Positions 35,340 to 53,803 of a stretch of 64,000 nucleotides of DNA are shown here, piece by piece. Under the pieces are notes generated by a model. It worked only from the letters and a program-made list of their open reading frames with translations. It was not told the DNA's origin and ran no database searches. The translations under genes and the position numbers were made by a program. The DNA is taken from assembly GCF_016807805.1 (NCBI RefSeq), contig NZ_CP063362.1:1-64000 (forward strand), written 5' to 3'. Positions within the stretch are counted from its first letter, which is position 1; every line of letters begins with the position of its first letter. Origin of the DNA: Xanthobacter dioxanivorans (GTDB lineage: Bacteria > Pseudomonadota > Alphaproteobacteria > Rhizobiales > Xanthobacteraceae).

Positions 35340-35411
35340 GCTCTGCTCCTTGGCGAAGCCCTGCCGCAACGTGCGGCCGAACCCTTCGGGTCTGTTGCCC
35401 TCGCCTGTGCA

Positions 35412-35426
35412 GCAAGGGGCGTGCCA
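35412..35426 (-). promoter_or_regulatory. Sigma-54 promoter of the GMC-ALDH operon
   Basis: On the minus strand it reads TGGCACG-CCCC-TTGC, an exact match to the -24/-12 consensus with correct spacing. Transcription should begin near 35400, about 60 bases before the GMC start codon. Confidence 0.8.
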
Positions 35427-35872
35427 TTCGTTTCTATACGAACAATCCAGGCCGGCGTGACCGGCCGCGGAGAAGCGGGACGGCGCCGCTCCAGCAATGA
35501 CCAAGGCCGGGATACCATTCGCGCCAAAATGTCGACGAATTCACTTTTCCAATGACCTTGGGTCACATGAATACTGCTTCATCATTGTCGCACGACTTGT
35601 GCCCATTTCATATGCATACAAATGAGAAAGATACCGATCGCCCCGAACGCGGCACGCGGATTGCCAACCCCTGCCGGCGGGCGGCGGGAGGTCCTTCGCC
35701 TTTCCTCGCCCGTCTTTCGGCAGTGCTCGGCGCATCGATTTGATCTGCAGCAAATCCATTGCCTTCAACGCGCTGTTCGTGGCCGGGCCGCAGACTTTTC
35801 GTGCGATCCGTCCAGGAATATGGCTGCCGACGACCGTACCGGCGACGCGAAGAACGTTTGTATAAAAATGAA

Positions 35873-35888
35873 TGGTACGGGCCTTGCT
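35873..35888 (+). promoter_or_regulatory. Sigma-54 promoter of the Amt-like gene
   Basis: TGGTACG-GGCC-TTGCT, one mismatch to the -24/-12 consensus, with the invariant GG and GC 12 bases apart. Transcription should begin near 35899, about 100 bases before the start codon. Confidence 0.7.
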
Positions 35889-36001
35889 AGATGTTCTCGC
35901 GGGGGAGCGCCGTGCTTTTCTCAGCCCCCAGCGGACCGCGAGAGACGCTTCCGCGGTCTGGCGCACGTCACCTATTCGCATCGAGCCGCGGGGACCTGAA
36001 G

Positions 36002-37366
36002 ATGACGACACCATTGCAGACGTTCCCAGAACAGGTCGCGACACACCAGTATCTCGTTGCCTTCTTCTATGCCTTCGCCACCGTGGGCGTGATGCTCGGC
36101 GTGGCGGCGATCATCCTGATCGATGCCGGGCTGGTGAAGCGGCAGAACCTTATCGACACCATCGTCCAGAAGGTGCTCTGCACCTTCATCAGCGGCGCCG
36201 CCTTCATGGTCGTGGGGTATGGCATCTGGAACTGGCAGTACTATCAGGCCTTCGGTGTGCCCGACAGCCTCTCGGCCGCCATCAAGGACTGGTCCATCTT
36301 CGGCAACAACCTGCTGCATTTTTCGCAAAACATCGATCCCAAGGCGGTTGCGGAGGCCGACACCTTCCAGATCTTCAGCGTGTTTTTCTTCGCCTTCGCC
36401 GGGCTGACCGCCGTCCTCATCCAGGGCGCGGGGCTGGAGCGGCTGAAGGCCGGCGCCAACTACATCACATCCGCCGTGGTCGGCGCCATCGTGGTGCCGG
36501 TCGCCGCCTATCTCACCTATGGCTCCGCGAGCCCCCTCACCAATGCGGGGCTGCATGATTTCGTCGGCGCATACTGCCTCTACATGGTGGTGGGCGTTTG
36601 GGCCGTGGTGCTTGCCTGGCGCCTCGGACCGCGCCATGGCGGCGTTTCCGCGCCCGGGCATTTCTCCCTGCTCACCGTGGGCGTGCTGCTGCTGCTGCTC
36701 GCCATTCCCATGTTCGTCATCGGCTGCGGCTTCCTGGTGCCCGAGGCCGGCTATTTCGGCCCGACGCTCGCCACCTCCGGCCTCGGCATCGTCTTCACCA
36801 ACGTCTTCATGTCCTTCGCCGGCGGCGCGCTCACCGGCGGCTTTCTCGCCTACCGCATGCGCAAACCCGCCTTCATCCTGCTCGGACCGGTGGCGGGCTA
36901 CGTGTCCTGCTCGGCGCTGTTCGACGTGGCCATGCCGTGGCAGGCCTTCGCCATCGCGCTGGCCGGGCCGTTCATCCTGGCCGGCGGCGAGCGCCTGCTG
37001 AAGGCGGCGGGCATCGACGAGCCGAAGGTGGCGCCGCTCGCCCTCGGCCCGTCCATCTACAGCGTTCTGATGGCGGGCATCGTCGGGGCCGGCGTGCCGC
37101 AGGGCGGGTTCTTCGGCATCAAGGAAGGCGCCTTCGCGTTCCAGCATGCCGCCGTCAGCTTCGGCATGCAGGTGCTGGGACTGGTGGTGATCGTGGCGCT
37201 GACCGCCGTCACCGCCTTCATCGTGACCTACCTGATCGAGAAGACCGTGGGCCTGCGCGTGTCGCACGAGCAGGAGGTGCGCGGCCTCGACCCGTCCATC
37301 TGGCAGGTGTCCGAAGTTCCATCGCGCGAGCTGGCAGGCCTCACCCCCGCACCCGAGGCTGCCTGA
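36002..37366 (+). CDS. Amt-family membrane transporter lacking twin histidines
   Basis: A 454-residue membrane protein with about 11 helices that aligns with ammonium transporters: LIDAGLVKRQNLIDTI corresponds to the first conserved loop, and LHDFVGAYCLY and AGIVGAGVPQGGFFG correspond to the two pore segments. The twin pore histidines of AmtB are replaced: in the DFAGGTVVH segment the His is Tyr, and in HGVxGIVG it is Val. It may therefore move something other than ammonium, or sense rather than transport. No glnK precedes it. It has its own sigma-54 promoter and faces the alcohol-oxidation operon, so uptake of a small polar or neutral compound linked to that pathway is a plausible guess. Confidence 0.75.
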   Translation: MTTPLQTFPEQVATHQYLVAFFYAFATVGVMLGVAAIILIDAGLVKRQNLIDTIVQKVLCTFISGAAFMVVGYGIWNWQYYQAFGVPDSLSAAIKDWSIFGNNLLHFSQNIDPKAVAEADTFQIFSVFFFAFAGLTAVLIQGAGLERLKAGANYITSAVVGAIVVPVAAYLTYGSASPLTNAGLHDFVGAYCLYMVVGVWAVVLAWRLGPRHGGVSAPGHFSLLTVGVLLLLLAIPMFVIGCGFLVPEAGYFGPTLATSGLGIVFTNVFMSFAGGALTGGFLAYRMRKPAFILLGPVAGYVSCSALFDVAMPWQAFAIALAGPFILAGGERLLKAAGIDEPKVAPLALGPSIYSVLMAGIVGAGVPQGGFFGIKEGAFAFQHAAVSFGMQVLGLVVIVALTAVTAFIVTYLIEKTVGLRVSHEQEVRGLDPSIWQVSEVPSRELAGLTPAPEAA

Positions 37367-37425
37367 TCCACCCGGAAGGTCTCGTGGAGGGGGCTGTTGC
37401 CGTCGCGGAATTGTCCCTTCAAGCA

Positions 37426-37451
37426 ACTGCGGCACTTTCGGGTGCCGCAGT
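37426..37451. terminator. Stem-loop terminator between convergent genes
   Basis: ACTGCGGCAC and GTGCCGCAGT form a perfect 10-bp stem with a TTTCGG loop, followed by CTTTCG. It sits between the convergent Amt-like gene and pcaG and could stop both transcripts. Confidence 0.75.
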
Positions 37452-37530
37452 CTTTCGCAGGAGGCCATCCCGACGGCGAGGGCCGGCCCTCGCCGATCCG
37501 TCGGGGATGACGGCGGTCGGCTCATCGCGC

Positions 37531-38121
37531 TCACATGTCGAAGAACACGGTCTCATTCTCGCCCTGGAGGCGGATGTCGTGGCGATAGATCACGGCCCCC
37601 TCCGGCTCGCTGCGCCGGGCCACCAGGGTTTCGCGGCGCCCGGCCTGCTCGATGGCCTTCAGCACGGGATCCGCGGCGTTCGCCTCGGCCTCGTCGGAGA
37701 AGTACATGCGGGTGTGCAGGTGGATGTTGATGCCGCGGGCGAAAATCAGAAGCGAGACGTGGGGCGCCTGCGGCCGGCCGTCGCGCCAGGGCAGCACCCC
37801 TGGCCTGATGGTCTCGAACGACCACAGGCCGGTGGCGAAATCCGCGGCCGCGCGGCCGAAGCCGAGGAAGCCGGGATTGTCGTGGCGGCCTTCGGCGTCC
37901 GCCTGCCACAGCTCGATCAGGGCGTCCTTCACCGGGTGGCCCGAGCCGTCCCAGACCATGCCTTCGATGCGGATGCGCTCGCCCGGGACACCGCCCGGGG
38001 CGATGACGGAGAGGTCCTCCTGGGTGCGGACGGGAAGCCCGGCCACCGCCGGCACGGTTCCGATATGCACGTAGGGACCGCCGGTCTGGGACGGCGTCTC
38101 CTTCAGATAGGCGACCGGCAT
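37531..38121 (-). CDS. pcaG: Protocatechuate 3,4-dioxygenase, alpha subunit
   Basis: The alpha subunit (196 residues) of the intradiol dioxygenase that opens protocatechuate to 3-carboxy-cis,cis-muconate. Family signs are TPSQTGGPYVHIG at the N-terminus, DALIELWQADAEGRH and SFETIRPGVLPWRDGRPQAPH. The alpha subunit lacks the iron ligands, as expected. Its start overlaps the pcaH stop, giving the order pcaC-pcaH-pcaG on the minus strand, translationally coupled. The ring-cleavage product is handled by PcaB, encoded divergently, and PcaC. Confidence 0.97.
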   Translation of the reverse strand: MPVAYLKETPSQTGGPYVHIGTVPAVAGLPVRTQEDLSVIAPGGVPGERIRIEGMVWDGSGHPVKDALIELWQADAEGRHDNPGFLGFGRAAADFATGLWSFETIRPGVLPWRDGRPQAPHVSLLIFARGINIHLHTRMYFSDEAEANAADPVLKAIEQAGRRETLVARRSEPEGAVIYRHDIRLQGENETVFFDM

Positions 38122-38846
38122 CACAGCCCCTCCCTCTTGTTCTCGAAGAACGTCTGCCGGCGTCCGCGCAGCACGATGTCGAAGCGAAAGGCCAGGGCGT
38201 CGAACGGCATCTGCTGGCCCATGTCGAGCCTCGCGACGAGCGCTTCGATGGCCGCCTTGTCCGGCAGGGTGTTCACGATGGGGCACAAAGGAATGAGCGG
38301 GTCGCCCTCGAAGTAGAATTGCGAGATCAGCCGCTGCACGAAGGCTTCGCCGAAGAGCGAGAAGTGGATGTGCGCCGGGCGCCAGTCGGAGCCATGGTTG
38401 CGCCAGGGATAGGGGCCGGGGCGGATGGTGCGGAAGAAGTAGCGGCCTTCCGGATCGGTCATGCAGCGGCCGGTGCCGCCGAAATTGTCGTCGAGGGGGG
38501 CGAGATAGCTGTCGTTCTTGTGGCGGTAGCGGCCGCCGGCATTGGCCTGCCACACCTCGATGAGGGTGTTGGGCACGGGCCGGCCGGTCTCGTCCAGCAC
38601 CCGCCCGTGCACCACGATGCGCTCGCCGATGGCTTCGCCGCCATGGGAGAAGTTGCGGATGAGGTCGTTGTCCAGCGGGTCGAGGCCGGAGCGGGGGAAG
38701 ACGGGCCCGCTTCTCTCGCCGATGCCCTGCTCCAGGGACACGAGGGCGCAGCGGGGCGAGCGAAGGACGCTGGTCTTGTAGCCCGGGGTGAAGGCGGGCG
38801 GATGCCGGTTGCGGTCGCGGCGGATGAAATCCCCCGTCTCAATCAT
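38121..38846 (-). CDS. pcaH: Protocatechuate 3,4-dioxygenase, beta subunit
   Basis: The catalytic beta subunit (241 residues) of protocatechuate 3,4-dioxygenase. The intradiol signature [18 protein letters not shown] is present. The ferric-iron ligands (two Tyr, two His) are in the region GRYRHKN and [19 protein letters not shown]. It overlaps pcaG by 3 bases and pcaC by 8, so all three are coupled. The enzyme inserts both oxygen atoms between the hydroxylated carbons of protocatechuate. Confidence 0.97.
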
Positions 38847-39261
38847 GGTTTCCTCCCTGTTGTTTGGTATCGTCCCGGGCTTCGGCATAGACGGTCTTGG
38901 CGATCTTGTAGGCGCGGTTCGCCGCCGGCACGCCGGCATAAACGGCCACGTGCATGAGGGCCTCGGCCACGTCCTCGGCGCTGGCGCCGGTGTTGCGGGT
39001 GGCGCGCACGTGCATGGCCACCTCCTCGTCATGGCCAAGGGCGGCGAGGAGGGCGATGGTGATCATGGAGCGCTCGCGCCTTGTCAGGTTCGGCCGGGCC
39101 CACACCGAACCCCAGGCGCCCTCGGTGATGAAGGTCTGGAAGTCCTCGTCCAGGGCGGTGGTGCCCGTCTCCGCCGCGTCCACATGGGCCTCCCCAAGCA
39201 CCGCGCGGCGCGTCGCCATTCCGCTGGTCCAGAGCAAGGAGCGGTCGGAGAGGGAAGGCAC
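38839..39261 (-). CDS. pcaC: 4-carboxymuconolactone decarboxylase
   Basis: A 140-residue decarboxylase of the carboxymuconolactone/AhpD-like family that converts 4-carboxymuconolactone to beta-ketoadipate enol-lactone. Typical segments are [34 protein letters not shown] and the [17 protein letters not shown] region with the active-site His. The GTG at 39261 with AAGGAA before it gives the usual N-terminus; an in-frame GTG at 39330 would add non-conserved residues. It is first in the pcaCHG transcript. No pcaD is seen in this window. Confidence 0.93.
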
Positions 39262-39623
39262 GGCGGGTTCCTTTTCGTAGGGCGGCGGATGAAGGCATGC
39301 GTGAAAAATCGCGCGCGGCCTCGCGGCCACGACCCATCAAGCCTCCATCGAGGAGGACGAAAGTTTCATACGATTTTCGTCATGGAAAATGATATTTTCG
39401 CATTTTAACATGTCAATTTTGATATGTATGCCCAATGAACCGTGCCGCGGAGGCGCTGCACCTCGCCCCGCCGAGGTGGCGCGTGGCGGCGGAACGACTG
39501 ATACGCGCCCCAAGAAACGGGACGCACGACCAGACACCGGAAACCGAACGCCTGCACGACCTTGACGGCAGGGGGCGGCCAAGTGGAGTTTGCCCGGCCC
39601 TTCACCGCCCGCGAGGTAACGCC
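39262..39623. promoter_or_regulatory. Divergent pcaC/pcaB control region
   Basis: An A+T-rich stretch (39360-39430) in the gap between the divergent pcaC and pcaB genes contains GAAAAT-N3-ATTTTC at 39386-39400 and the near-palindrome ACATGTCAA-TTT-TGATATGT at 39409-39428. These are likely promoter and operator positions. No pca regulator gene adjoins it. Confidence 0.55.
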
Positions 39624-40684
39624 ATGAGCGCGTCCGTATTCGAACATCCGTTCCTCGGAACACTGCTGGGCGATGACGAAGTGGCAGCGCACTTCACGGC
39701 CGCATCGGATCTGGCCGCCATGCTGCGCTTCGAGGCGGCGCTCGCCGAGGCCGAGGCGGAGGCCGGCGTCATCCCGCAGGCGGCGGCGGCGGACATTGCG
39801 GATGCGGCGCGCACCCTCCTCCTCGCTCCGGCGGACCTTGCCGCGGCCGTGGCCCGCGACGGCGTGGTGGTCCCGGATTTCGTGCGCCGGCTCCGGACGG
39901 CCGTGGGCGAGCCCCATGCCGCCTTCGTGCACAGGGGCTCGACCAGCCAGGACGTGATCGACACCAGCCTTTTCACGCGGCTTAAGGCGGCTTCCGAGAT
40001 CCTCCTGGCGCGGCTGGACGCGCTCGTCGTCGGCTTTGACCAGCTTGCCGCCGCGTCGGGCGACCTCGTGCTCGCCGGCCACACGCGGATGCAGCGGGCG
40101 CGGCCGATCACCCTCGCCCACAAGATCGCCGGGTGGCAAGATCCCCTCGTCCGCCATCAGGCGCGGTTCCCGGCGGTGGCGGCGGACCTCTTCCGGGTGC
40201 AGCTCGGCGGGGCGGTGGGCAACCGGGCGGAGCTCGGCGAAGCCGCCGACGCGGTGGCGGCCGGCGTTGCCGTCCGCCTCGGCCTCGCGACCGCCGCGCG
40301 CGCCACCCACGCCGAGCGCGACGCCATCGCCGCCTATGGTCACTGGTGCACGCTCATCGCCGGGACGCTCGGCAAGTTCGGCGCCGACATCGCGCTCATG
40401 GCGCAGAACGAGGTGGGCGAGGTGACCATTGCGGGGGCGGTGGCTCCTCCGCCATGCCGGAGAAGAACAACCCGGTCGGCGCCGAGGTCCTGGTGACGCT
40501 CGCGCGCTTTTCCGCCGTGCTCCAGGGCGGGCTCGACCAGGCCCTGGTGCATGAAAACGAACGCTCCGGCGCCGCCTGGACGCTGGAGTGGATGATCCTG
40601 CCCCAGCTCGTCGTGGCGGCCGGCGCCGCCACCCGCACGGCGCTCGCCCTGCTCGGCGCCCTGCGCTTTCCCGCCCCGACCTGA
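39624..40684 (+). pseudogene. pcaB: 3-carboxy-cis,cis-muconate cycloisomerase, one frameshift
   Basis: A member of the fumarase/aspartase superfamily that lactonises 3-carboxymuconate to 4-carboxymuconolactone. It has HRGSTSQDVIDT, LAGHTRMQRARPITL and RAELGEAADAVA. The superfamily signature loop GSSAMPEKNNPVGAEV lies in a shifted frame: one G appears missing from the G5 run near 40434-40438. Restoring it yields 353 residues, typical for bacterial PcaB, ending at 40684. It faces the pcaCHG operon, so the three steps after protocatechuate are covered. The frame break in a homopolymer with both sides conserved favours a sequencing error. Confidence 0.88.
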
Positions 40685-40730
40685 GCGCGACGCGGGGCCG
40701 ACCGCGCCGTGCGTCGCGGCCGCGCAGCGG

Positions 40731-41117
40731 CTATGCGGGTGGCGTGTTCTCGCCGACGCAGATGATGCCGTCCGCGTCCACGATCACCGGAACGGTATCC
40801 AGAGCGCATCCCACTCCGAGGCCCTCCACACCCCTCCCATCGGCGACGCGGAACGCCGCATCGTGGTTGGAACAGCGCACAAGCGTGCCGTCCGCGCTGA
40901 CCACGCGCGTGCTGCGATAGGTAAGCGGCAGGTCGCGATGGGGACACAGGTTCACGAAGGCGGCCACGCCGCCCGACACCCTGACGAGCAGGATCGGAAA
41001 GGCACCCGCCCCGCTGTCGATCTCCACGGCCAGCACGCCCATGACATCGAGTTCGGCCGCGGCGGCGAGCGCCGCGCCCGGCGGCGGAGCGATCCGGCAG
41101 GCGCGGAAATCACCCAT
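40731..41117 (-). CDS. Rieske 2Fe-2S domain protein
   Basis: A 128-residue protein consisting of one Rieske domain. Cluster ligands are visible in NLCPHRDLPL (C-x-H) and VRCSNHDAAFRVADG (C-x2-H). The protein resembles Rieske ferredoxins that donate electrons to oxygenases, but no oxygenase partner is adjacent. It lies 22 bases after hppD on the same strand and is probably cotranscribed with it, an unusual partner. Its role could be electron transfer to a tyrosine- or homogentisate-linked enzyme; this is not shown. Confidence 0.8.
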   Translation of the reverse strand: MGDFRACRIAPPPGAALAAAAELDVMGVLAVEIDSGAGAFPILLVRVSGGVAAFVNLCPHRDLPLTYRSTRVVSADGTLVRCSNHDAAFRVADGRGVEGLGVGCALDTVPVIVDADGIICVGENTPPA

Positions 41118-41139
41118 CCTCAGTCCTCCGGTCCACCAT

Positions 41140-42240
41140 TCAGGCGGTCAGCACACCGCGCTGGATCTGGTCTGCCTCGATGGATTCGAACAGGGCCTTG
41201 AAGTTGCCCTCGCCGAAGCCATCATCGCCCTTGCGCTGGATGAACTCGAAGAAGATCGGGCCGATCACGGTCTTCGAGAAGATCTGCAGCAGGATGCGCG
41301 TGGCGCCGCCATCCACCACGCCCTCGCCGTCGATGAGGATGCCGTGGGTCTTCAGCCGGTCCATGGGCTCGCTGTGGCCGCTGACGCGAGCGTAGGAGCG
41401 CTCGTAATAGATATCCGGCGGTCCGGGCATGAATGCCACGCCGCGGGCGGCGATGGCGTCGGTGGCGGCATAGATGTCGTTGGTGGCGATGGCCACGTGC
41501 TGGATGCCCTCGCCCTTGTACTGAGCGAGATATTCCTCGATCTGGCTCTTGTCGTCCGCGCTCTCGTTGATGGGGATGCGGATCTTGCCGCAGGGCGAGG
41601 TCAAGGCGCGGCTGGTGAGGCCGGTGAGCTTGCCGGCAATGTCGAAATAACGGATCTCGCGGAAATTGAAGGTTTCCGCATAGAATTTGTACCAGGTGTC
41701 CATGTTGCCGCGCCTGACATTATGGGTCAGGTGGTCAAGGTAGTAGAAGCCGACGCCATAAGGCGCGGGGTCCACGTCGCCGAGCCATTCGAAATCGTCG
41801 GAATAAGGCGAGCCCTTCGCGCCATAGGTGTCCACGAAATAGAGCAGCGATCCACCGATGCCGATCACCGCGGGCACGTCTAGGGTCTTGTCGGGGCCGT
41901 TATATTCGGTGGCGCCGAGATCCAGCGCGCGCTTCAGGGCGTGCCCGGCATCCACCACGCGCCACGCCATGGCCGGGGCGCAGGGGCCGTGGGCCTGCAC
42001 GAAGCGGCCGGAATGGCCGTCGTGCTCGCGGTTGACCACGTAGTTGATGTCGCCCTGGCGATAGAGCGAGATATCCCGCGTCTTGTGGCGCGCCACCTCG
42101 GTGAAACCCATGGTCTCGAACAGCGGCCCGAGCACGGCGGGATCGGGGTGGGCGAACTCGACGAACTCGAAGCCGTCGGTTCCGGCGGGGTTGCTGGCGC
42201 TGATGGTGGCCGGCGGCGCGTCGTGCGGGAAAGGTCCCAT
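41140..42240 (-). CDS. hppD: 4-hydroxyphenylpyruvate dioxygenase
   Basis: Converts 4-hydroxyphenylpyruvate to homogentisate, the second step of tyrosine breakdown. It has 366 residues with two vicinal-oxygen-chelate domains; the iron ligands are His in DHLTHNV, His in GIQHVAIAT and Glu in FFEFIQRKG. The ATG at 42240 follows GGGAGGA; the open frame extends upstream without conserved residues. An Lrp-type regulator is divergently encoded 131 bases away, as for many amino-acid catabolic genes. No homogentisate dioxygenase is in the window. Confidence 0.96.
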   Translation of the reverse strand: MGPFPHDAPPATISASNPAGTDGFEFVEFAHPDPAVLGPLFETMGFTEVARHKTRDISLYRQGDINYVVNREHDGHSGRFVQAHGPCAPAMAWRVVDAGHALKRALDLGATEYNGPDKTLDVPAVIGIGGSLLYFVDTYGAKGSPYSDDFEWLGDVDPAPYGVGFYYLDHLTHNVRRGNMDTWYKFYAETFNFREIRYFDIAGKLTGLTSRALTSPCGKIRIPINESADDKSQIEEYLAQYKGEGIQHVAIATNDIYAATDAIAARGVAFMPGPPDIYYERSYARVSGHSEPMDRLKTHGILIDGEGVVDGGATRILLQIFSKTVIGPIFFEFIQRKGDDGFGEGNFKALFESIEADQIQRGVLTA

Positions 42241-42371
42241 GGCATCCTCCCTGGAGCGTGGATGGGGCAGAGTGGGGCAAAGTCGCTGCAAAGGGCGTGC
42301 GAAATTGATCCAGATCAGATAAATATCGCGAGGATTGAGCGTCTCTTGCTTAGTTTTCGCGAGATTTGTGC

Positions 42372-42857
42372 ATGGATATCTTCGACATTCGCATTCTCTC
42401 CGCGCTACAGGATGACGGGCGGCTGACCAATGCCGAACTGGCCGAGAAGGCGGGACTTTCCGCCTCCCAATGTTCCCGCCGCCGCATGGCGCTGGAGGAC
42501 GCCGGCGTCATCGCCAGCTATCGCGCCGTCCTTTCGCCCGAGGCGCTGGGCCTCGACGTGCTGGTGTTCGTGCAGGTGACCCTCGCCACCCACTCGCCGG
42601 ACAATGCCGCGCGATTCCTCGCTTTGGTCGCCAGCCTCGACGAGGTGCAGGAGGCCTATTCCCTCACCGGCGAGGCGGACTATCTCGTCAAGCTCACCGT
42701 GCCGACGCTGAAGGACCTCGCACGGCTCTTGTCGGAAGCCTTCCTGGCACACCCGTCGGTGGCGCATCTGCGCTCCTCCATCGTGCTCGACCGGCTGAAG
42801 CAGAGCGCCCGGCTGCCGCTGGCGCATCTGCGCCGCTCCTCCCGGACGGAGGGCTGA
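42372..42857 (+). CDS. Lrp/AsnC-family transcriptional regulator
   Basis: A 161-residue regulator with an N-terminal helix-turn-helix (about 8-50; LTNAELAEKAGLSASQCSRR) and a C-terminal RAM effector domain (about 65-145; VQEAYSLTGEADYLVKL), the part that binds amino acids. It is divergent from hppD and likely controls it in response to tyrosine or phenylalanine. The ATG at 42372 gives the normal start. Confidence 0.9.
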   Translation: MDIFDIRILSALQDDGRLTNAELAEKAGLSASQCSRRRMALEDAGVIASYRAVLSPEALGLDVLVFVQVTLATHSPDNAARFLALVASLDEVQEAYSLTGEADYLVKLTVPTLKDLARLLSEAFLAHPSVAHLRSSIVLDRLKQSARLPLAHLRRSSRTEG

Positions 42858-42954
42858 TACCAATGGCCCGCGCGGCGCTTGAGCGTACCCACTTGGCATC
42901 GGTCGAAGACCGAGGCTGACGGTATGAGCGCGCCGCGCCCAGCCCGGCCCCCGG

Positions 42955-44430
42955 TCATTGCGAGAGCTTTTCCAGCGCGACGTCCGTGGTGCGTGGTCCA
43001 AGCAGGCCGACCGCCAGCATGGTGATGACCATGCAGGTGGAGGTGAAGAGGAACACGCCCGTCACCCCGGCATGGTTTAGCAAGTATTCGAGGACAAAGG
43101 CGGTGAAGATCGCCGAGAAGCGGCTCCACGAATAGACGAACCCCACGGCCCGGGCACGGATGCGCGTCGGATAAAGCTCGGCCTGGTAGGCATGGTAGGT
43201 ATAGGACAAGGTGTTGGCGGCCAGCGTGATGGTGAGGCCGGCTGCGAGGATGCCGGCCATGCCGGTCTGCTGCGAGAAGGCGAGGCCCGCGACCACGATG
43301 ATGCCCGCCATGGCCAGGATCACGGTCTTGCGCTCGTAGCGGTCGGCGATGATCATCCCGAGCAGCGGGCCGACTGGCGCGGCGATGGCGATGATGCTGG
43401 TGTAGCCGAGGCTCGCGGTGACGGTGATGCCCTGCTTGATGAGCAGAGAGGGCACCCAGTTGGCGAAGCCGTAATAGGCCACCGTCTGGAACACGTGGAA
43501 CAGCAGCATCATGATGGTGCGCTGGCGATAGGGCGGCTTCCAGATGTCGCCGAACCGTTCGTCTTTGACCACCGGCGCGACCTGCTGCGGCTCGGGCGGG
43601 GGCAGGTCCTTGCCGGTCTCCTTGCGGACCTTCTCCTCGAGGCGCGACAGGATGACGTCGGCTTCCGCGACCCGGCCCTTCATGGCGAGCCAGCGCGGGC
43701 TCTCGGGCAGGCGGCGGCGGACCCACCAGATCACCAGCGCGCCACCGGCCCCGATCAGCACCACCCAGCGCCAGCCATCGAAGCCGAGCGGCGCCATCGG
43801 CACGAGCAGGTAGGAGAGAAACGCCACCGTGGGCACGGAGAGGAAGCCGATGGCCTGCGAGAGGGCCGAGGCGCGGCCGCGCATGTGCTTGGGCACCAGC
43901 TCGGTGATGTAGCTGCCGATAGTGACGATCTCGACGCCGATGCCGATGCCGGCGATGAAGCGCCACAGATTGACGTCGAAGGCGGTGGACTGGAACGCCA
44001 TGACGGCGTTGGCGGCCGAGTACCAGAGCAGCGAATAGGTGAACACGGCCTTGCGACCGAACCGGTCCGCCAGGAAGCCGCAGCATAGCGTGCCGAGGAA
44101 CAGCCCCGAGAACAGCGCGGCGATGAAGCTCGCCCGTCCCGAGAACAGCAGCTCGAAGAAATTCCACACCGATGTCGCTTCCGACACCGACGCCGCCTTG
44201 GCGCTCAGGATGCCTGCCTTGACGAGGCCGGGCGTCACGTAGCCGGTGAGGAACAGGTCGTAGAGCTCGAAGAACAGGCCGAGGCTGATCAGCACCACCA
44301 CCCGCCAGACCGGGCGCGAGGCCGGAATGCGGTCGAGCCGGGCGGAAATGGTGCCGGCATCGGGTTCGGTGCGTGGAACGGCAGCCGCGTCCGCGACCGC
44401 CCCCATGTCGAGGGCAGACAAGGCTTTCAT
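42955..44430 (-). CDS. MFS transporter, sugar/metabolite:H+ symporter type
   Basis: A 491-residue major-facilitator transporter with 12 helices. The motif GFLADRFGRKAVF between helices 2 and 3 and PESPRWLAMKGR after helix 6 are typical of the sugar porter/metabolite symporter families. The long N-terminal arm (about 45 residues) is cytoplasmic. It ends a minus-strand group 126 bases downstream of the CoA-transferase gene. It probably imports the organic acid used by the CoA-transferase and lyase encoded upstream. Confidence 0.88.
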   Translation of the reverse strand: MKALSALDMGAVADAAAVPRTEPDAGTISARLDRIPASRPVWRVVVLISLGLFFELYDLFLTGYVTPGLVKAGILSAKAASVSEATSVWNFFELLFSGRASFIAALFSGLFLGTLCCGFLADRFGRKAVFTYSLLWYSAANAVMAFQSTAFDVNLWRFIAGIGIGVEIVTIGSYITELVPKHMRGRASALSQAIGFLSVPTVAFLSYLLVPMAPLGFDGWRWVVLIGAGGALVIWWVRRRLPESPRWLAMKGRVAEADVILSRLEEKVRKETGKDLPPPEPQQVAPVVKDERFGDIWKPPYRQRTIMMLLFHVFQTVAYYGFANWVPSLLIKQGITVTASLGYTSIIAIAAPVGPLLGMIIADRYERKTVILAMAGIIVVAGLAFSQQTGMAGILAAGLTITLAANTLSYTYHAYQAELYPTRIRARAVGFVYSWSRFSAIFTAFVLEYLLNHAGVTGVFLFTSTCMVITMLAVGLLGPRTTDVALEKLSQ

Positions 44431-44556
44431 GGTTTCCTCCCGAAGAACCGGCCTGGGCTGTTCCCGCCCCTTGGCCGTCGCAATGACTTGATCTTGATCT
44501 GGATCTGGCTTCCAGCGCTCCCGCGACCGCCAGTCAGGCTGGCGCGGAAAGGCCGG

Positions 44557-45828: not shown

Positions 45829-46799
45829 TGCACAGCCTCCAGGGCCTCATGGACAGTGCTTGAAAGGCGATAGGTGCGCGGAATGCCGGCGGCCGCGACG
45901 CGCCCGTGGAGCCGCTCCGAGGGCAAAGCCTCGGCGAGCACGGCCCGGGCCGCGATGAGGGCGGCAAGGTCGATGCCCGTGTCGAAGCCTTCCAGCTCCA
46001 AGAGATAGACGAGGTCCTCGGTCGCCGCGTTGCCCACCGAGCCGGGCGCGAAGGGACAGCCGCCGAGGCCGCCGAGGGCGCCGTCGAAGCCGCCCACCCC
46101 TTCCTCAAGGCCGGCATAGACATTGGCGAGGGCGGTCCCGAGCGTGTCATGCAGGTGCAGATGGCCGAACCGCGCCGCCCCCACCTCCCGGCGCACGCCG
46201 CGCACCAGCCGCTTCACCTGGGAGGGCGATGCATATCCGAGCGTATCGGCGAGGCTCACGGTGTCCGCGCCCGCGGTGGCGAGGGCGGCCGCGAGACGCA
46301 GCACATCCGCCTCGGGCACGATGCCCTGGAGCGAGCAGCCGAAGGCGGTGGAGATCCCGGCCTCGATCCGCGGGCGGCCGGCCCCCAGCGTTGCCGCGAA
46401 GGCGGTGATGCGGGCGACCTCGGCCACCTGCTCCTCGCGGCTGCGCCGCACGTTGGAGCGGCTGTGCGCCTCGCTGGCGGAGACGGGAACGATGATGACC
46501 TGCGCCCCGGCGGCGGCCGCGTTCTGCGCGCCGCGCAGGTTCGGCGCGAGCGCCACCACCTTCAGGGCCGGATGCTGCCGCCGGACCGCCGCGGTCACGT
46601 CCGCCGCATCGGCCATCTGCGGCAGAGCGGCGGGCGGGACGAAGCTCGCCACTTCCATGTCGCGCACGCCGGCGGCGACCATGGCGTCGATCCACAAAAG
46701 CTTGGCGGCGGTGGGCATGATCGCCTTCGCCATCTGAAGGCCGTCCCTGGGGCCGACCTCGCGGATGGCGAGGACAGGCCGCTTGGCGTCGGGGGCCAT
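45825..46799 (-). CDS. Hydroxymethylglutaryl-CoA lyase family protein
   Basis: A 324-residue TIM-barrel lyase. HMG-CoA lyase splits 3-hydroxy-3-methylglutaryl-CoA to acetoacetate and acetyl-CoA. Seen are REVGPRDGLQ (Arg and metal Asp), GHLHLHDTLGTALAN (metal His pair) and GGLGGCPFAPGSVGN (the active-site Cys loop). It lies upstream of the CoA-transferase and is coupled to it by a 4-base overlap. A LysR regulator is divergent. In some organisms this fold cleaves related 3-hydroxy-acyl-CoAs, so the exact substrate is an inference. Confidence 0.9.
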   Translation of the reverse strand: MAPDAKRPVLAIREVGPRDGLQMAKAIMPTAAKLLWIDAMVAAGVRDMEVASFVPPAALPQMADAADVTAAVRRQHPALKVVALAPNLRGAQNAAAAGAQVIIVPVSASEAHSRSNVRRSREEQVAEVARITAFAATLGAGRPRIEAGISTAFGCSLQGIVPEADVLRLAAALATAGADTVSLADTLGYASPSQVKRLVRGVRREVGAARFGHLHLHDTLGTALANVYAGLEEGVGGFDGALGGLGGCPFAPGSVGNAATEDLVYLLELEGFDTGIDLAALIAARAVLAEALPSERLHGRVAAAGIPRTYRLSSTVHEALEAVQ

Positions 46800-46901
46800 G
46801 GTTTCCTCGTTTATTTTGATGTGTTGATTGGAAAATACATCCGCATAATACGGACGAGAATCGCTCATTGGCGCCCTCACCGTCCGCTATCCACGGATGC
46901 T

Positions 46902-46912
46902 GGGGGGGGGGG
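46902..46912. other. G11 homopolymer
   Basis: A run of eleven G in the divergent gap, 23 bases before the LysR start codon. Such a run may vary in length by slippage or be misread; it lies outside any chosen coding region. Confidence 0.6.
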
Positions 46913-46935
46913 CGCGACGCAGGAGGGCGTGCCCA

Positions 46936-47865
46936 ATGACGACACCACCGGATTGGATCACCCTGCGGCTGTTCCTCACCGCCATAGAGCTTGGCAGCAT
47001 CGCCAAGGCCGCCGATCGCTGCGGCATCGCCAATTCGGCGGCGGCCAAGCGCATCCAGTTGCTGGAAGCGCAGGCCCGGACAGCCCTGGTCGAACGGCAT
47101 GCCCGTGGCATCATCCCGACCGCTGCGGGGGAAAGCTTTGCGCGCCATGCCCGTGGCCTCATCGACCTTGCCAGGCACCTGGAAGACGAAATGGATGCCT
47201 TCGCCGCGGGGGGTGCCGGCACGGTCCGCCTCCTGGCGACGGCATCCTGCATCGGCGGGCACGATCTGGCGGACCTGCTGGCGGGCTTTGCCCGGCTGCA
47301 TCCGCGCATTCTCGTGGATCTGCGCGAGTTGACCAGCGCTGTGATCCTTCAGGACCTGATCGAGGGTCGGGCCGATCTCGGGATCGTCACCACCAATGCC
47401 CGCATCCCGGTCGGGCTCGAAGCGCAACCGTGGCGGGAGGATCGCCTGCTCGCCATCGTCTCCGCCGACCATCCGCTGGCAGGCCGAAAGAGCGTGAAGT
47501 TCAGCGAGGTGCTGGAGCATCCGCTCGTGGACGTGCTGGAGATCGGCGCCCTGTCGCTGCTACTTGCCGAGGCGGCCCAGGCCCTGGGCCGCAAGCCCTA
47601 TTATCGCTACCATGTCACCTCCATGGACGCCGCCCGCCGGCTCGTTGCGGCGGGCCTCGCCGTCAACGTGATGCCGGATCACATGATCGCGCCCTATGCG
47701 GAAAATCTCGGCCTGCGGGGCATTCTCATCGACGAGCCCTGGTCGCTCCGGCGGTTGCGGCTCGTGTCTCGCGTCGGCGGCGTCTCGCCGGGCCCCGCCC
47801 GCCTGCTCGCCGACCATCTGTTGAACGCTCCGACGACGAGTGCCGGCCCCTCATCCCCGGCGTGA
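46936..47865 (+). CDS. LysR-family transcriptional regulator
   Basis: A 309-residue LysR-type regulator with an N-terminal helix-turn-helix (ITLRLFLTAIELGSIAKAAD, about 10-60) and a periplasmic-binding-protein-like effector domain (about 90-300). The start at 46936 is supported by AGGAGGG 8-15 bases upstream; an earlier in-frame ATG at 46897 lies before the G11 run. It is divergent from the lyase-transferase operon and probably controls it. The effector is likely a CoA-linked or free acid of that pathway. Confidence 0.9.
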   Translation: MTTPPDWITLRLFLTAIELGSIAKAADRCGIANSAAAKRIQLLEAQARTALVERHARGIIPTAAGESFARHARGLIDLARHLEDEMDAFAAGGAGTVRLLATASCIGGHDLADLLAGFARLHPRILVDLRELTSAVILQDLIEGRADLGIVTTNARIPVGLEAQPWREDRLLAIVSADHPLAGRKSVKFSEVLEHPLVDVLEIGALSLLLAEAAQALGRKPYYRYHVTSMDAARRLVAAGLAVNVMPDHMIAPYAENLGLRGILIDEPWSLRRLRLVSRVGGVSPGPARLLADHLLNAPTTSAGPSSPA

Positions 47866-48250
47866 TGCCGGCGCTCAACCGCGACGCCGTTTTCCCGAAC
47901 CTCGGCGCGAGGCGAGCCGGGCAGGCGATGTGCCATCGGCAGGCGGTGATTGACGACAATGGCGCCTCTATGGCGCTGGTGATGGGTCCGCGCGAGCGCG
48001 ACCCGCCCCATGGCCGAGCGCCTTGATCGCGTCCACCACTTCATCTGTGACAGCCTGCGTAACGAGGCGCCCGCCCGCAGATGGGGGAGGAGGTGGGTTC
48101 ACGGACCATCGCTCCAAGACCGACCCCGCCCACGTCAGCGGGGCCGATCTTCGTTCCGCGGCTCAAGCTCCGCAACGATACCCATATTGCCCGAGGTCTA
48201 CATGGGCGTCCCGGATCTGGTGCAGACAGAATATTTCTGGGGACTTTACG
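47866..48250. other. Intergenic gap between convergent genes
   Basis: 385 bases without a gene between the LysR and alcohol dehydrogenase stop codons. A small stem, CCCCGC-N8-GCGGGG, at 48124-48143 is the only structured element; it may assist termination. Confidence 0.5.
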
Positions 48251-49285
48251 CTATCCGATGATCACTTTCAGCGCTTTGGTGGACGAGGCCTTCTCGAACG
48301 TCTCGTAGGCGTCGAGGATGTCGGCCAGGGCGAAGCGATGGGTTATCAGCTTGCGCGGATCGAGCTTCTTCGACTGCACCGTCTTCAGCAGCATCGGCGT
48401 CGTCACCGTGTCCACCAGCCGCGTGGTGAGCGTGATGTTGTGGGCCCACAAGCGTTCGAGGTGAAGGTCCGCCTTCGTGCCGTGGACGCCCACATTGGCG
48501 ATGGTGCCGCCAGGTGCCACGATGTCCTGGCACAGCACGAAGGTGGCAGGAATGCCGACCGCCTCGATCGCGGTGTCCACGCCGATGCCGCCGGTCAAGG
48601 CCATGACCCTCTCGACGGCGTTGTCCCGGCCGCTGTTGACCGCCTTCGTCGCGCCGAAGGTCAGGGCGACCTCGAGGCGGTTGTCGTCCAGATCGATCAT
48701 GATGATTTCGGCGGGGGAATAGAACTGCGCGGTCAGAAGCGCCGCAAGGCCCACCGGTCCTGCCCCGACGATGGCCACGGTGCTTCCCGGCTGCACCTTG
48801 CCGTTCAACACGCCGCACTCGAAGCCGGTGGGGAGGATGTCGCTGAGCATGACGAGGGATTCCTCGTCCATGCCTTCCGGGATGTGGTGCAGGGACGTGT
48901 CGGCGAACGGGATGCGGACATATTCGGCCTGCGTGCCGTGGATGGTGTGGCCGAGCATCCAGCCGGCGACGGAGCAGTGGGAATACATGCCGCGCTTGCA
49001 ATATTCGCAGCGGCCGCAGGACGAGATGCAGGAAATGAGGACATGGTCCCCCTTCTTGAAGGCCGAGACCGCCTGACCGACCTCCTCGATGACTCCAACG
49101 CCCTCGTGGCCGAGCACGGTACCGGGTTTCACGGTGGGCACGTCGCCCTTGAGGATGTGCAGATCGCTGCCGCAGATGGTGGTGCGCAGGATCTTCACCA
49201 CGGCGTCAGTGGGCTGTTCGATCCGCGGATCCGGCACCTCCTCCAGCGCCTTCTTGCCGGGACCGCGATAGACTAGACCCTTCAT
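48251..49285 (-). CDS. Zinc-dependent secondary alcohol dehydrogenase
   Basis: A 344-residue medium-chain zinc alcohol dehydrogenase. Catalytic zinc ligands are in ICGSDLH and LGHEGVGVI, structural-zinc cysteines in SSCGRCEYCKRGMYSHC, and the NAD motif is VGAGPVGLAAL followed by IDLDDNRLE. It resembles dehydrogenases acting on 2-propanol and other secondary alcohols. The adjacent ketone-carboxylase operon would take up the ketone it forms, so a secondary alcohol to ketone to beta-keto acid route is proposed. Its own sigma-54 element sits about 75 bases before the start. It is monocistronic. Confidence 0.9.
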   Translation of the reverse strand: MKGLVYRGPGKKALEEVPDPRIEQPTDAVVKILRTTICGSDLHILKGDVPTVKPGTVLGHEGVGVIEEVGQAVSAFKKGDHVLISCISSCGRCEYCKRGMYSHCSVAGWMLGHTIHGTQAEYVRIPFADTSLHHIPEGMDEESLVMLSDILPTGFECGVLNGKVQPGSTVAIVGAGPVGLAALLTAQFYSPAEIIMIDLDDNRLEVALTFGATKAVNSGRDNAVERVMALTGGIGVDTAIEAVGIPATFVLCQDIVAPGGTIANVGVHGTKADLHLERLWAHNITLTTRLVDTVTTPMLLKTVQSKKLDPRKLITHRFALADILDAYETFEKASSTKALKVIIG

Positions 49286-49645
49286 CAGGGGCCTCCCTTT
49301 CCAGTGTCGATGAATTGGCGGCACGCTGGGCAACGGCCGCATGCCGCGTCGCCTCGTGGGCAAGAGTGGTGCCATGGCTGCCCGCCGTGCATTCGCGCGC
49401 TCCTTCGGTGCCACGCGGCGTCTGCACTGTCCGCAATTGCGACGCCGGCGGACGAATTCCGGTCGTCCGGACGGGTCCGGCTGGGGCTGGGGTACGCCCC
49501 GCAGGCAAGGGCCACGCGCCGTCGCGCCTGGCGCCGTCTTCTCCGCGTGCGACGCGACCGGTCCGGCCGCGTGAAACAAGGAGCTGAGGCCTGCGTGAAC
49601 TGGCAAAGCGAGGCAGAAGCGTGCGGGGCCCGTCGCCCGGCGCGG
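49286..49645. promoter_or_regulatory. Control region of the alcohol dehydrogenase gene
   Basis: 360 bases without a gene, upstream of the minus-strand dehydrogenase. It holds the sigma-54 element at 49360-49374 and the perfect palindrome CGCAATTGCG at 49432-49441, about 90 bases before the predicted start site and so well placed as an activator site. Confidence 0.6.
49360..49374 (-). promoter_or_regulatory. Sigma-54 promoter of the zinc alcohol dehydrogenase
   Basis: On the minus strand it reads TGGCACC-ACTC-TTGC, matching the -24/-12 consensus at all invariant positions with correct spacing. Transcription should begin near 49348. Confidence 0.78.
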
Positions 49646-50860
<1,215 letters not shown>

Positions 50861-51292
50861 GGGCGGTCTCGAAGGTTTGGCGCCGGGGCGCGACGATGGC
50901 GGTGCGCGCAGCAACGCGCGTGCCAGCGCCGGAATGCCGACCCCGGCGGGACCGCGAGCAACCGGAGCGTTCGAATTTCGGCCCCTGCCACGTTCGAAAA
51001 TCGAACGCCATCGGACGGATGCCGCACCGTAGCCGGGCGGAGAAATCGCTCGAACATCCCGCCCCGCGGGAGACGTGCTGCGTGGCATGATCGATGCTAG
51101 TATCGCACTTCGGCATGGTCTGCCCCGCAAGCGCGGGACGGGCCGCCGCAGGCTCGCGCAACGGAGGCTTCAGCGCGCGCCGCGGCTGCCACAAGAGCGA
51201 AAAGAAGACGTCCGCCCAAGAAGATGCAGACAGCAGATTTGCCCGGGGCGGCGCACCGGCCGGCCCTCGGGGCCGCTGGGGGAGGACGCAAA
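50861..51292. promoter_or_regulatory. Divergent region between cobW and the activator
   Basis: 432 bases without a gene. It holds the cobW sigma-54 element at 50911-50925 and, about 100 bases before the predicted cobW start site, the perfect palindrome CGTTCGA-AAA-TCGAACG at 50991-51007. An extra half-site, CGTTCGAA, lies at 50968-50975. This is a good position for an enhancer-binding site of the adjacent activator. Confidence 0.65.
50911..50925 (-). promoter_or_regulatory. Sigma-54 promoter of the cobW gene
   Basis: On the minus strand it reads TGGCACG-CGCG-TTGC, an exact match to the -24/-12 consensus. Transcription should begin near 50899, about 40 bases before the start codon. Confidence 0.8.
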
Positions 51293-53324
51293 ATGCCTTT
51301 CGGACGGCCCGGACAGAAATTCTCGGTACCCGAGAACGACGACAAGGTGATGGTGTCGTGGGAGCGCTTCCTCGGGGGCGACGAATCCACGTCCGACGCA
51401 TTGCGCCGGCTCGTGGACGATTCCTGGCGACGCTGCCTCAGCAACAGCGTGGACCCGCAGCGGGCGCAAGCGCCCCCGCCCATGCGGGAGGATTCGCTGC
51501 ACTCCCTGCGGGATGACTGCCGCGAGCTGCTGGAGGCGAGCCAGCCGGTGATGGCCTCGGCCCGCGAGTTCCTCGCCGAGACCGGAACGGTGATGGTCCT
51601 CACCGACGGCGCCGGTGTCATCCTCAACCTCGAGGGGGACCTGCGGCTGCGCGATGCGGCGGCGAACATCCACCTGCTGTCCGGCGCCAGCTGGAGCGAG
51701 ACGGCCTGCGGCACCAACGCCATCGGTACCGCCATAGAGATCGGCCAGCCGGTGCAGATCCATTCGGCAGAGCACTATTGCTCCGGCATCAAGCGCTGGT
51801 CATGCTCGGCCAACGTCATCCGCGACCCGTATGACGGTGCCATCCTCGGGGTGGTCGATGTCTCGGGCCTCTCGGATACGTTCAACCGCCACAGCCTCGC
51901 GCTGGTGGTGGCGACGGCCGGGCGCATCGAGAACCGGCTTGCCCAGCAGGAGATGGATTTCCGCCTGCGCCTGCTGGACCACTGCATGGATCGCCTTTCG
52001 GGATCGAGCTCGGACGGCGTGATCGTGTTCGACCGGCGCGGCCGGGCGGTAAAGGCCAATGGCGCCGCCACCGACGCTCTCATCGACCTGCAGCGCCAGC
52101 GTGGGGATGCCTCGGGCGCGGACCTGTCGCGGCTGCGGCTGAACTGGCGCAAGGAGGCGCCCCTGCCGGACGAGCTGCCGCCCTGGCTGCGACGCGAATG
52201 GCTGGAGCCCGTTGTCACCGACGGCGAGCGTCTCGGCATCGTCCTCCGCCTGCCGGCACGCCGCACCGCGCCGGCCCGCCCGGTGGACACCAGCATCGTC
52301 GCCGCGAAGGCGGAGGCGGGCGACGATGCCTTCTCGCGGATCATCGGCGAGGCTCCCGCCCTGCGACAGGCGATCGGCCGCGCACGCCAGCTGGCCAAGA
52401 GCCGGGCGCCGGTGCTGCTGCTGGGCGATACCGGCGTGGGCAAGGACGTGTTCGCCCAGTGTCTCCACGCCGGCAGCGCCGGGCGCGACAATGCGTTCGT
52501 GGCCCTCAATTGCGGCGGTTTTTCCCGCGAGCTGCTGACCAGCGAGCTGTTCGGCTATGCGGAGGGCGCCTTCACCGGCGCGCGCCGCGGCGGGATGATC
52601 GGCAAGATCGAGGCGGCCGACGGCGGCACCCTTTTCCTCGACGAGATTGGCGAGATGCCTAAGGACCTGCAGCCGCATTTCCTGCGGGTGCTGGAAGCCG
52701 GCGAGGTTTACCGCATCGGCGAAACGCGCCCGCGCAAGGTGAACTTCCGCCTGGTGGCCGCCACCAACCGCGATCTGCGGCACGAGGTGGAGGTGGGGCG
52801 GTTCCGCATGGACCTGTTCTATCGCGTGGCGGTCACCAGCATTTCCATTCCCGCCCTGCGGGAGAGGGCCACGGACATTCCGCTCCTGGCCGAGCATCTG
52901 GTGCAGGAACTCGCGCGGCGGCAAGGACTGGAGCCGCGCCGGCTCTCCCCCGGGGATCGAGGTGCTGCAGGCCTATGCCTGGCCGGGAAACGTGCGCGAG
53001 CTGCGCAACGTCATCGAAGGCATGCTCCTCATCGCCGAGGGGGAGGAACTGAGCGAAGCGGACATTCCGGACGAGATCTGGACGCAGCCGGAGAGCGACA
53101 CTGCGCCATCCACCGCGCCGGCCGGGGAGGCAGGGCACCTGCGTGGCCTCAGCGGAATGGAGAATGCCGAGCGCCTGGCGCTCTTGCGCGCCATGCAGAT
53201 GCACAAGGGCAACATGACCGCGGTGGCCCGGGATCTCGGCATCGCCAAGAGCACGGTCTACGCCAAGCTCCGCCGCTTCGGCCTGGAAGGCGTGATGGGC
53301 GAGACGCGTCGCTTCCAACTTTAG
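51293..53324 (+). pseudogene. Sigma-54-dependent activator (AcoR/AcxR type), one frameshift
   Basis: An enhancer-binding activator of sigma-54 RNA polymerase. Domains: N-terminal GAF-type sensor region (about 60-215, GASWSETACGTNAIGTA), AAA+ domain (about 350-590) with Walker A GDTGVGKDVF, sigma-54 contact loop EGAFTGARRGG and Walker B GGTLFLDEIG, and a C-terminal Fis-type helix-turn-helix (KGNMTAVARDLGIAKSTVYA). One extra base in the CCCCCGGGG near 52948-52956 shifts the frame; correcting it gives 676 residues, the normal length. The acetone carboxylase activator AcxR has this layout. It lies just before the carboxylase operon and probably controls the sigma-54 promoters of this window. Confidence 0.9.
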
Positions 53325-53465
53325 AGGGTGGGCCGAGCAGATTTATTTCATCTTCCCGGTGAATCACGCTAATATTGAATGAATAGCACCCGTCATCTGC
53401 CTGACAAACGTCGATATATTGAATAGATCTGATTTCCGGCACTCCGCCGCAAGCCCATCCTCCAA

Positions 53466-53495
53466 ACCGCCGATCTCGATCGGCGGTCTTTTTTT
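53466..53495 (+). terminator. Rho-independent terminator of the activator gene
   Basis: ACCGCCGAT and ATCGGCGGT form a perfect 9-bp stem with a CTCG loop, followed by C and seven T. It lies 140 bases after the activator stop and before the carboxylase promoter, so the two are separate transcripts. Confidence 0.88.
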
Positions 53496-53555
53496 GCCGG
53501 AGCGGGCATGGTGCACTGCGCGCGTCACATGCCTGCGTCGCACAATATAGACCGA

Positions 53556-53597
53556 TTTCCGAACGCGTATTCGCAAAGACGTCGGCAGGTGTCCTGC
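53556..53597. promoter_or_regulatory. Possible activator sites upstream of the carboxylase promoter
   Basis: Two inverted repeats lie about 100-130 bases before the predicted transcription start: TTTCCGAA-N6-TTCGCAAA (53556-53577, one mismatch) and GCAGG-TGT-CCTGC (53585-53597). Either could be the enhancer for the sigma-54 activator. Confidence 0.45.
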
Positions 53598-53668
53598 GCG
53601 AAAAAACCTGACCCGCCGAAATCAGCTCAAATAAATGAAAACCGAAGGTGCAAACGCCTCCTCGGTCT

Positions 53669-53683
53669 TGGCATGCCCCTTGC
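53669..53683 (+). promoter_or_regulatory. Sigma-54 promoter of the carboxylase operon
   Basis: TGGCATG-CCCC-TTGC, matching the -24/-12 consensus with one change outside the invariant GG and GC. Transcription should begin near 53695, about 110 bases before the first start codon. Confidence 0.82.
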
Positions 53684-53803
53684 GATCATCTGACGAGCGT
53701 CTCGGATCGCGCCTCGCCCAGCAGGCGAGCGCTGCCGCGCAGTCGTCCGAAGATGTCGGTTCATGTGGCCGCAGCCAGAGAAAAACGGGAGGAAAATGAG
53801 CGT

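Follow-up and report, generated by a model that had tools for sequence, protein, structure and literature searches.

Background

The closest described relatives of the locus considered here are the AcxR-acxABC systems, in which the gene of a sigma-54 activator adjoins an operon for a ketone carboxylase of the HyuA/HyuB type; in the passages devoted to it, an account of C. metallidurans CH34 that also refers to X. autotrophicus Py2 describes the sigma-54 promoter of this system and places the sequence TGGCATGN4TTGC in the acxR-acxA region (PMC2864759). In the present report we analyse an arrangement of the same kind in Xanthobacter dioxanivorans, located within bases 1-64000 of one contig (hereafter the window) of a genome of 6.65 Mb in five contigs. 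Here too an activator gene adjoins a ketone carboxylase operon bearing a sigma-54-type promoter. Unlike AcxR-acxABC, the window encodes a five-gene carboxylase, which we name apc-like, and conserved sites are also carried by a zinc alcohol dehydrogenase gene (adh), a cobW gene and the activator gene itself. This set of genes, called module A below, adds to the AcxR-type systems one with more targets.

The neighbourhood of cobW, activator and carboxylase is already in print: a table for one metagenomic fosmid includes a CobW-like gene, a sigma-54-dependent activator and acetophenone carboxylase genes, nearest to those of A. vinelandii DJ and in one case to X. autotrophicus Py2. That table presents the same gene neighbourhood by gene names, and within it no promoters, boxes or regulon are given (PMC3676327). 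According to the relevant part of a study of Paraburkholderia phymatum, a gene of a sigma-54-dependent regulator lies by the acetone carboxylase operon and was upregulated together with it in nifA-mutant nodules; control of the operon by this regulator is proposed by the authors (PMC8305402). The acetophenone carboxylase (Apc) of Aromatoleum aromaticum, as characterised in the sections consulted (PMC5214803), shares with the window the subunit families, the order A-B-C-D and the nearest solved chains (5l9w); it differs in that the four subunits of the window score far under the equivalog cut-offs and the candidate E gene matches none of the families. The literature covered, comprising titles, openings of abstracts and passages with few subscription journals among them, contained no promoters, box or autoregulation for this cluster.

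A sequence-only reading of the window had joined five sigma-54 promoters and one activator into a single alcohol and ketone regulon. In our opinion the window probably holds two separate sigma-54 modules instead: module A, a ketone-utilisation regulon with a self-regulated activator, and module B, a divergent gene pair encoding a GMC oxidoreductase with an aldehyde dehydrogenase (GMC-ALDH) on one side and an Amt-like protein on the other, served by another activator. In module A, an activator with GAF, AAA+ and Fis-type domains (AcxR/AcoR type) would sense a ketone or alcohol, probably via its GAF domain, and, as conservation suggests, would bind CGTTCGATTTTCRRNCG-related boxes located about 50-115 bp ahead of four sigma-54 promoters. 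From these promoters the activator gene and cobW, which share one box pair, would be transcribed, together with adh and the apc-like operon. The outcome would be a positive feedback loop for the conversion of a secondary alcohol to a ketone and of this to a carboxylated ketone, the substrate being presumed. Module B, with its two conserved promoters and the same element at both but without the boxes of module A, would probably answer to a different activator. The resulting control map, which comprises four promoters and one activator together with a candidate binding box and a predicted positive autoregulation, is open to test; it concerns an apc-like ketone carboxylase cluster that recurs in several proteobacterial genera.

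Results and discussion

Promoter sites and their conservation

The following sigma-54-type sites were located in the window:

53669-53684, plus strand: -24/-12 site of the apc-like operon (TGGCATGCCCCTTGCG), kept in 7 of 7 Xanthobacter sequences
50910-50925, minus strand: site of cobW (TGGCACGCGCGTTGCT), exact, kept in 8 of 8 Xanthobacter sequences
51083-51098, plus strand: site of the activator gene itself (TGGCATGATCGATGCT), one mismatch (ATGC for TTGC), kept in 8 of 8 Xanthobacter sequences
49359-49374, minus strand: site of adh (TGGCACCACTCTTGCC), two mismatches, kept in 6 of 6 Xanthobacter sequences
35411-35426, minus strand: site of GMC-ALDH (TGGCACGCCCCTTGCT), exact, kept in locus L113
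35873-35888, plus strand: site of the Amt-like gene (TGGTACGGGCCTTGCT), one mismatch, kept in L113

In all of them GG and GC stand in proper register ahead of a gene and point towards it, and an RpoN-dependent transcription start is predicted at these positions; rpoN is represented by one gene in the genome. Five had been proposed in the sequence-only reading, and its coordinates hold to within one base, as do the strand of the following gene and the GG/GC register, while the sixth, at 51083-51098, had escaped it. The proposed 40-120 bases to the start codon agree with the 48-119 bp measured from the -12 end to the best start (GMC 71, Amt 113, adh 73, cobW 48-49 and apcA 113-119 bp); for the Amt-like gene the better start is 36002, the open reading frame (ORF) start at 35891 lying nearly on the -12 element. 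Two sites had been called exact, which is correct for TGGCAYG-N4-TTGCW (GMC and cobW), whereas the shorter pattern actually quoted, TGGCAYG-N4-TTGC, is matched by three, apcA being the third.

Counting of loose consensus matches proved useless as evidence of promoters: at up to three mismatches the window contains 119 matches versus 155 +/- 15 in shuffled sequences, which is no enrichment. A density above chance, proposed earlier as a check, is absent for the loose motif. Exact matches carry weight: TGGCAYGN4TTGCW occurs 10 times genome-wide versus once for the reversed pattern, and two of the 10 lie in the window. Such matches are few, and credible throughout the genome. The other eight precede NifH-like, IscA/HesB-like, NifB-like and four ABC-transporter-like genes (L114, L118, L119, L120) and one ORF (L121), names assigned by eye from translations, with the L114 ATPase alone run against a family library. 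TGT-N10-ACA is the pattern of NifA and GCAC-N7-GTGC that of NtrC; the three promoters tested among these eight (NifH-like, IscA/HesB-like, NifB-like) all carry the NifA-type sequence 73-125 bp upstream. With one mismatch allowed, the genome-wide excess is small (86 matches versus 50 for the control), so such sites need outside evidence, and conservation supplies it. Conservation is consequently the basis for the Amt, activator and apcA sites, and the sole basis for that of adh, which with its two mismatches is inconspicuous by sequence alone.

The activator is 77-91% identical to its orthologs in seven named Xanthobacter loci. The order adh, cobW, activator, apcABC and candidate E gene is the same in L032, L033, L035 and L051, the gene set is interrupted by contig ends in L031 and L034, and parts of it are present in Zoogloea, Azotobacter and others. 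As listed above, each site of module A is found in every Xanthobacter locus holding the respective gene, the window included. The N4 spacer varies between genomes while the -24/-12 element is kept, which applies to module A and to the GMC and Amt sites alike. In wider taxa, sites with at most two mismatches were detected before adh in 12 of 14 loci, cobW in 24 of 32, the activator in 45 of 78 (a set mixing orthologs with AcxR-like genes adjoining other carboxylase clusters) and apcA in 27 of 28, compared with 1.5-2.6% in shuffled upstream regions. The loci retained for this test had identities of at least 60% (adh, apcA), 45% (cobW) or 50% (activator), upstream regions of at least 200 bases free of N, and matches beginning no later than query residue 45; identities from the partly out-of-frame cobW and apcD queries were left unused. 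For adh, one-mismatch sites at near-equal spacing (68-71 bp) recur in L042, L043, L044 and L055. That the sites are mere chance matches might be argued from the unenriched loose motif in the window and a one-mismatch excess under twofold, but such position-specific conservation across genera and in L113 makes this scarcely credible.

Candidate boxes and the activator gene

Alignment of eight Xanthobacter sequences of the cobW-activator intergenic region revealed two conserved blocks, which are inverted copies of GCGTTCGATTTTC; the conserved inverted boxes are of the type CGTTCGATTTTCRRNCG. Separate alignments showed a conserved block around GACCGATTTTCGAAC before apcA in seven loci and another before adh in most of six loci. 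The candidate boxes of the window are:

50967-50985, plus strand: candidate upstream activator box 1 of cobW/activator, conserved block in the eight aligned sequences
50990-51008, minus strand: candidate upstream activator box 2, inverted to box 1, containing the palindrome GTTCGAAAATCGAAC (50992-51006)
53548-53566, plus strand: candidate upstream box of apcA, about 113 bp before the -24 element, conserved block with stronger copies in relatives
49448-49466, strand unassigned: candidate, weak upstream box of adh, about 84 bp before the -24 element, p 0.003 in the window

The centres of the pair lie 52 and 75 bp before the -24 element of cobW, and 108 and 85 bp before that of the activator gene. 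One inverted box pair for two divergent promoters could be useful in ketone biosensors. Apart from the palindrome at 50992-51006, GTTCGAN3TCGAAC has no exact match in the genome; as a general box this pattern was rejected, there being that one exact copy and seven places with one mismatch. A longer box pattern gave 12 genomic matches at up to three mismatches versus 5 for its control. Judged by conservation, the predicted box appears firm at cobW/activator, likely at apcA and possible at adh.

The activator occupies two frames in this assembly:

51224-53362, plus strand: activator ORF with GAF and sigma-54 AAA+ domains (SELFGYAEGAFTGA), codons past about 575 out of register with orthologs
52962-53324, plus strand: frame with the remaining AAA+ lid and the Fis-type helix-turn-helix (Pfam AAA_lid_14, HTH_8)

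The GAF domain and an AAA+ domain with GAFTGA are as in the AcxR/AcoR type. Orthologs with at least 77% identity are present in 9 of 14 Xanthobacter genomes. It is, as had been said, the sole sigma-54 activator of the window, corresponding to one of 15 PF00158 stretches found genome-wide; by our own count three of these are weak matches, and the rest belong to eleven activator genes, one of which is split over two frames. The earlier notion of one activator for all the promoters fares worse, as ten other strong matches lie elsewhere in the genome and the copy in the window is frameshifted, a defect not noticed before.

The assignment of the four promoters to this activator has to be weighed against a number of observations which speak against it. 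With regard to the boxes, the best matrix hit does support it, reaching p<=0.05 in apcA regions of 7/7 Xanthobacter and 14/21 other loci, and in adh regions of 6/6 Xanthobacter and 4/8 others. The matrix was built from the cobW/activator copies, though, so only the apcA and adh regions test it, and the loci are kin rather than independent. The best apcA hit differs from the conserved block in the window and in L035, the true place leading in 5 of 7 Xanthobacter loci, the adh hit of L051 is at another place, and some hits in other genera are at odd distances. Two of eight unrelated sigma-54 promoters also reach p 0.04 with the same matrix. In the window itself the apcA box scores 8.4, the 15th best there, with four mismatches from the palindromic consensus, the adh box has 6-7 mismatches, and neither is among the 12 genomic matches of the longer pattern. 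As to the sites and genes, L036 (X. agilis) has cobW, activator and apc with adh missing, and cobW in L045, L050, L052, L054, L066, L074 and L079 has no site at up to three mismatches. Matches with at most one mismatch occur on the opposite strand as well (cobW 12/32, adh 5/14, activator 6/78, apcA 0/28), and probably arise in part from divergent promoters. Finally, the activator match in genome G009 has an internal stop, and that of the window is frameshifted as mentioned.

The frame break falls in a C/G run near 52,950-52,960, between the AAA+ core and the helix-turn-helix, which are in different frames here and in a single frame in the seven named Xanthobacter orthologs (e.g. L032). Either an indel was introduced into this run in assembly, or control was recently lost in the strain. 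In the latter case the activator would be a true pseudogene and its targets silent, so that module A would be dead in this strain, a state compatible with our explanation elsewhere. Although the position of the break would suit such a loss, we find it rather doubtful, because the break lies in a C/G run, the downstream codons still encode the conserved helix-turn-helix, and another sigma-54 activator of the same assembly (881.8-882.3 kb) is likewise in two frames. This second gene, at 881838-882337 of contig C1, was noticed as a side result; two frame-split activator genes in one assembly suggest, and favour, assembly indels.

What became of the single regulon is a mixed picture. For adh, cobW and the apc-like operon the connection to the activator stands, through neighbourhood, conserved sites and the box, which is less firm at apcA and adh; the part concerning the genes at 35 kb, whose link the sequence-only reading had itself marked as inference, did not hold up, as described below.

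The divergent pair at 35 kb

Module B consists of the two promoters listed above together with the following features:

33708-35339, minus strand: GMC oxidoreductase
32185-33696, minus strand: aldehyde dehydrogenase after GMC
36002-37366, plus strand: Amt-superfamily protein of a divergent clade
35427-35443, minus strand: promoter-proximal element GTTYGTATARAAAYGAA against the GMC -24 element
35856-35872, plus strand: second exact copy of GTTYGTATARAAAYGAA, against the Amt -24 element

The 17-bp A/T-rich element GTTYGTATARAAAYGAA is found exactly, genome-wide, only at these two -24 boxes; inexact searching yields two further places with two mismatches versus three control matches. The GMC-ALDH/Amt pair is present in 2 of 14 Xanthobacter genomes, and the overlapping larger sets give 2/41 relatives, 1/385 in the class and 2/391 in the family. 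The second carrier, L113, is probably X. agilis, a protein named as such being a 75% relative. In L113 both sites are kept with different N4 (TGGTACGCCGTTTGCA and TGGCACGAGACTTGCG), and the 17-bp element stands one base further from the -24 at both promoters, its GMC copy with one mismatch.

No box of module A was detected in the GMC/Amt intergenic region of either carrier genome (best-hit p 0.55 and 0.47), though a very weak one could escape the test. All five promoters could nevertheless form one regulon under the activator at 51-53 kb: they are of the same type, 15 kb apart, and serve alcohol- or aldehyde-oxidising enzymes, this activator is the only one of its class in the window, and the test is too blunt against a very weak box. 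We regard this as unlikely, given the missing box in both genomes, the private promoter element, the distribution of the two among 14 Xanthobacter genomes (pair in 2, activator in 9), and the location of pair and activator on different contigs in the second carrier genome. Since the genome has eleven activator genes, an unlinked activator for the pair is easily possible. Comparison of this sort can part neighbouring sigma-54 units which are alike only in the core promoter.

NifA and NtrC were considered as controllers of the pair and rejected, because no TGT-N10-ACA or GCAC-N7-GTGC site exists at GMC/Amt in either genome, although the three nif-type promoters tested carry NifA sites. Dyads with exact 5-base arms common to both GMC/Amt regions were not found. 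The exact abutment of the two halves in the window, and the lack of any other exact copy of the 17-bp element in the genome, would also suit a 33-bp operator (17-bp element plus TGGYACGN4TTGC) of some other regulator, of which the apparent sigma-54 sites would be the right half; in L113, however, N4 varies, TGG..TTGC is kept and the spacing is one base longer, which is the signature of a -24/-12 element and leaves this operator quite improbable. Under the two-module explanation, which we prefer, the position directly against the -24 element is still peculiar, as activators do not normally bind there. The pair might represent an unusual class of sigma-54 promoters in which a sequence-specific element (GTTYGTATARAAAYGAA) against the -24 links an Amt-superfamily protein that no longer conducts ammonium with the oxidation of alcohols; we offer this as a speculation with the odds well against it.

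The Amt-like protein belongs to the same superfamily as canonical AmtB, and its 126 bits fall short of the 343 required by the amt subfamily model. Scoring of 8000 candidates yielded 131 relatives at E<=1e-60. Tyr194 and Gly349, invariant in the clade (>=90%), align with the pore histidines of a solved ammonium transporter; canonical AmtB differs at both of these positions, which we take to be important for ammonium channels. The uptake function ascribed earlier to this protein is doubtful with Tyr and Gly there, and its cargo may be other than ammonium. Three plasmid relatives have about 37% identity.

Genes following the Amt-like gene differ between the two carriers. At 8700-12314 of L113 it is followed by a gene for a 1204-aa (amino acid) fused HyuA-HyuB protein of oxoprolinase type, which is not beside the Amt gene in the window. 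In the latter, 37561-37995 and 38163-38708 on the minus strand are adjacent dioxygenase matches, the second of which contains a PCDO_beta_N domain; together they would fit the two subunits of a protocatechuate 3,4-dioxygenase, and they are followed by a lyase and an HPPD-like gene.

The carboxylase operon and neighbouring genes

The structural genes of module A are:

53804-55735, plus strand: apcA-like gene (HyuA-type)
55741-56139, plus strand: apcB-like gene (Acetone_carb_G)
56243-58399, plus strand: apcC-like gene (HyuA-type)
58489-60369, plus strand: apcD-like gene (HyuB-type)
60760-61602, plus strand: candidate apcE-like ORF, matched in 23 of 28 apcC-matching loci
49646-50861, minus strand: cobW-type GTPase
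48251-49285, minus strand: zinc alcohol dehydrogenase (MDR), adh

The bit scores of the subunits remain below the curated Apc equivalog cut-offs in all four cases (A 326/1250, B 139/250, C 587/1500, D 241/1500), and the candidate E frame has no Pfam or NCBIfam match. The closest solved chains of the apcA- and apcC-like subunits are those of Apc (5l9w), not of acetone carboxylase. An acetone carboxylase beta subunit is encoded at 3.8 Mb, with a neighbouring AcxR-like gene, whose product is 42% identical to the activator of the window, and a two-mismatch sigma-54-type site. The presence of this separate enzyme means that acetone is probably not the main substrate of the operon in the window, and another ketone would be the likely one. 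The term apc-like was chosen since the gene order and nearest chains are those of Apc, yet the scores are under the cut-offs and an acetone carboxylase exists elsewhere. CobW may have a role in metal supply.

Downstream of the apc-like operon, a gene of the Phenol_MetA_deg type is located at 61759-62643, as it is in 5 of the 7 named Xanthobacter loci. Still further on, about 62826-63131 encodes the C-terminal domain of a CobW protein, but no N-terminal GTPase domain was recognised with it; this may be what is left of a cobW gene, or a second copy that is broken.

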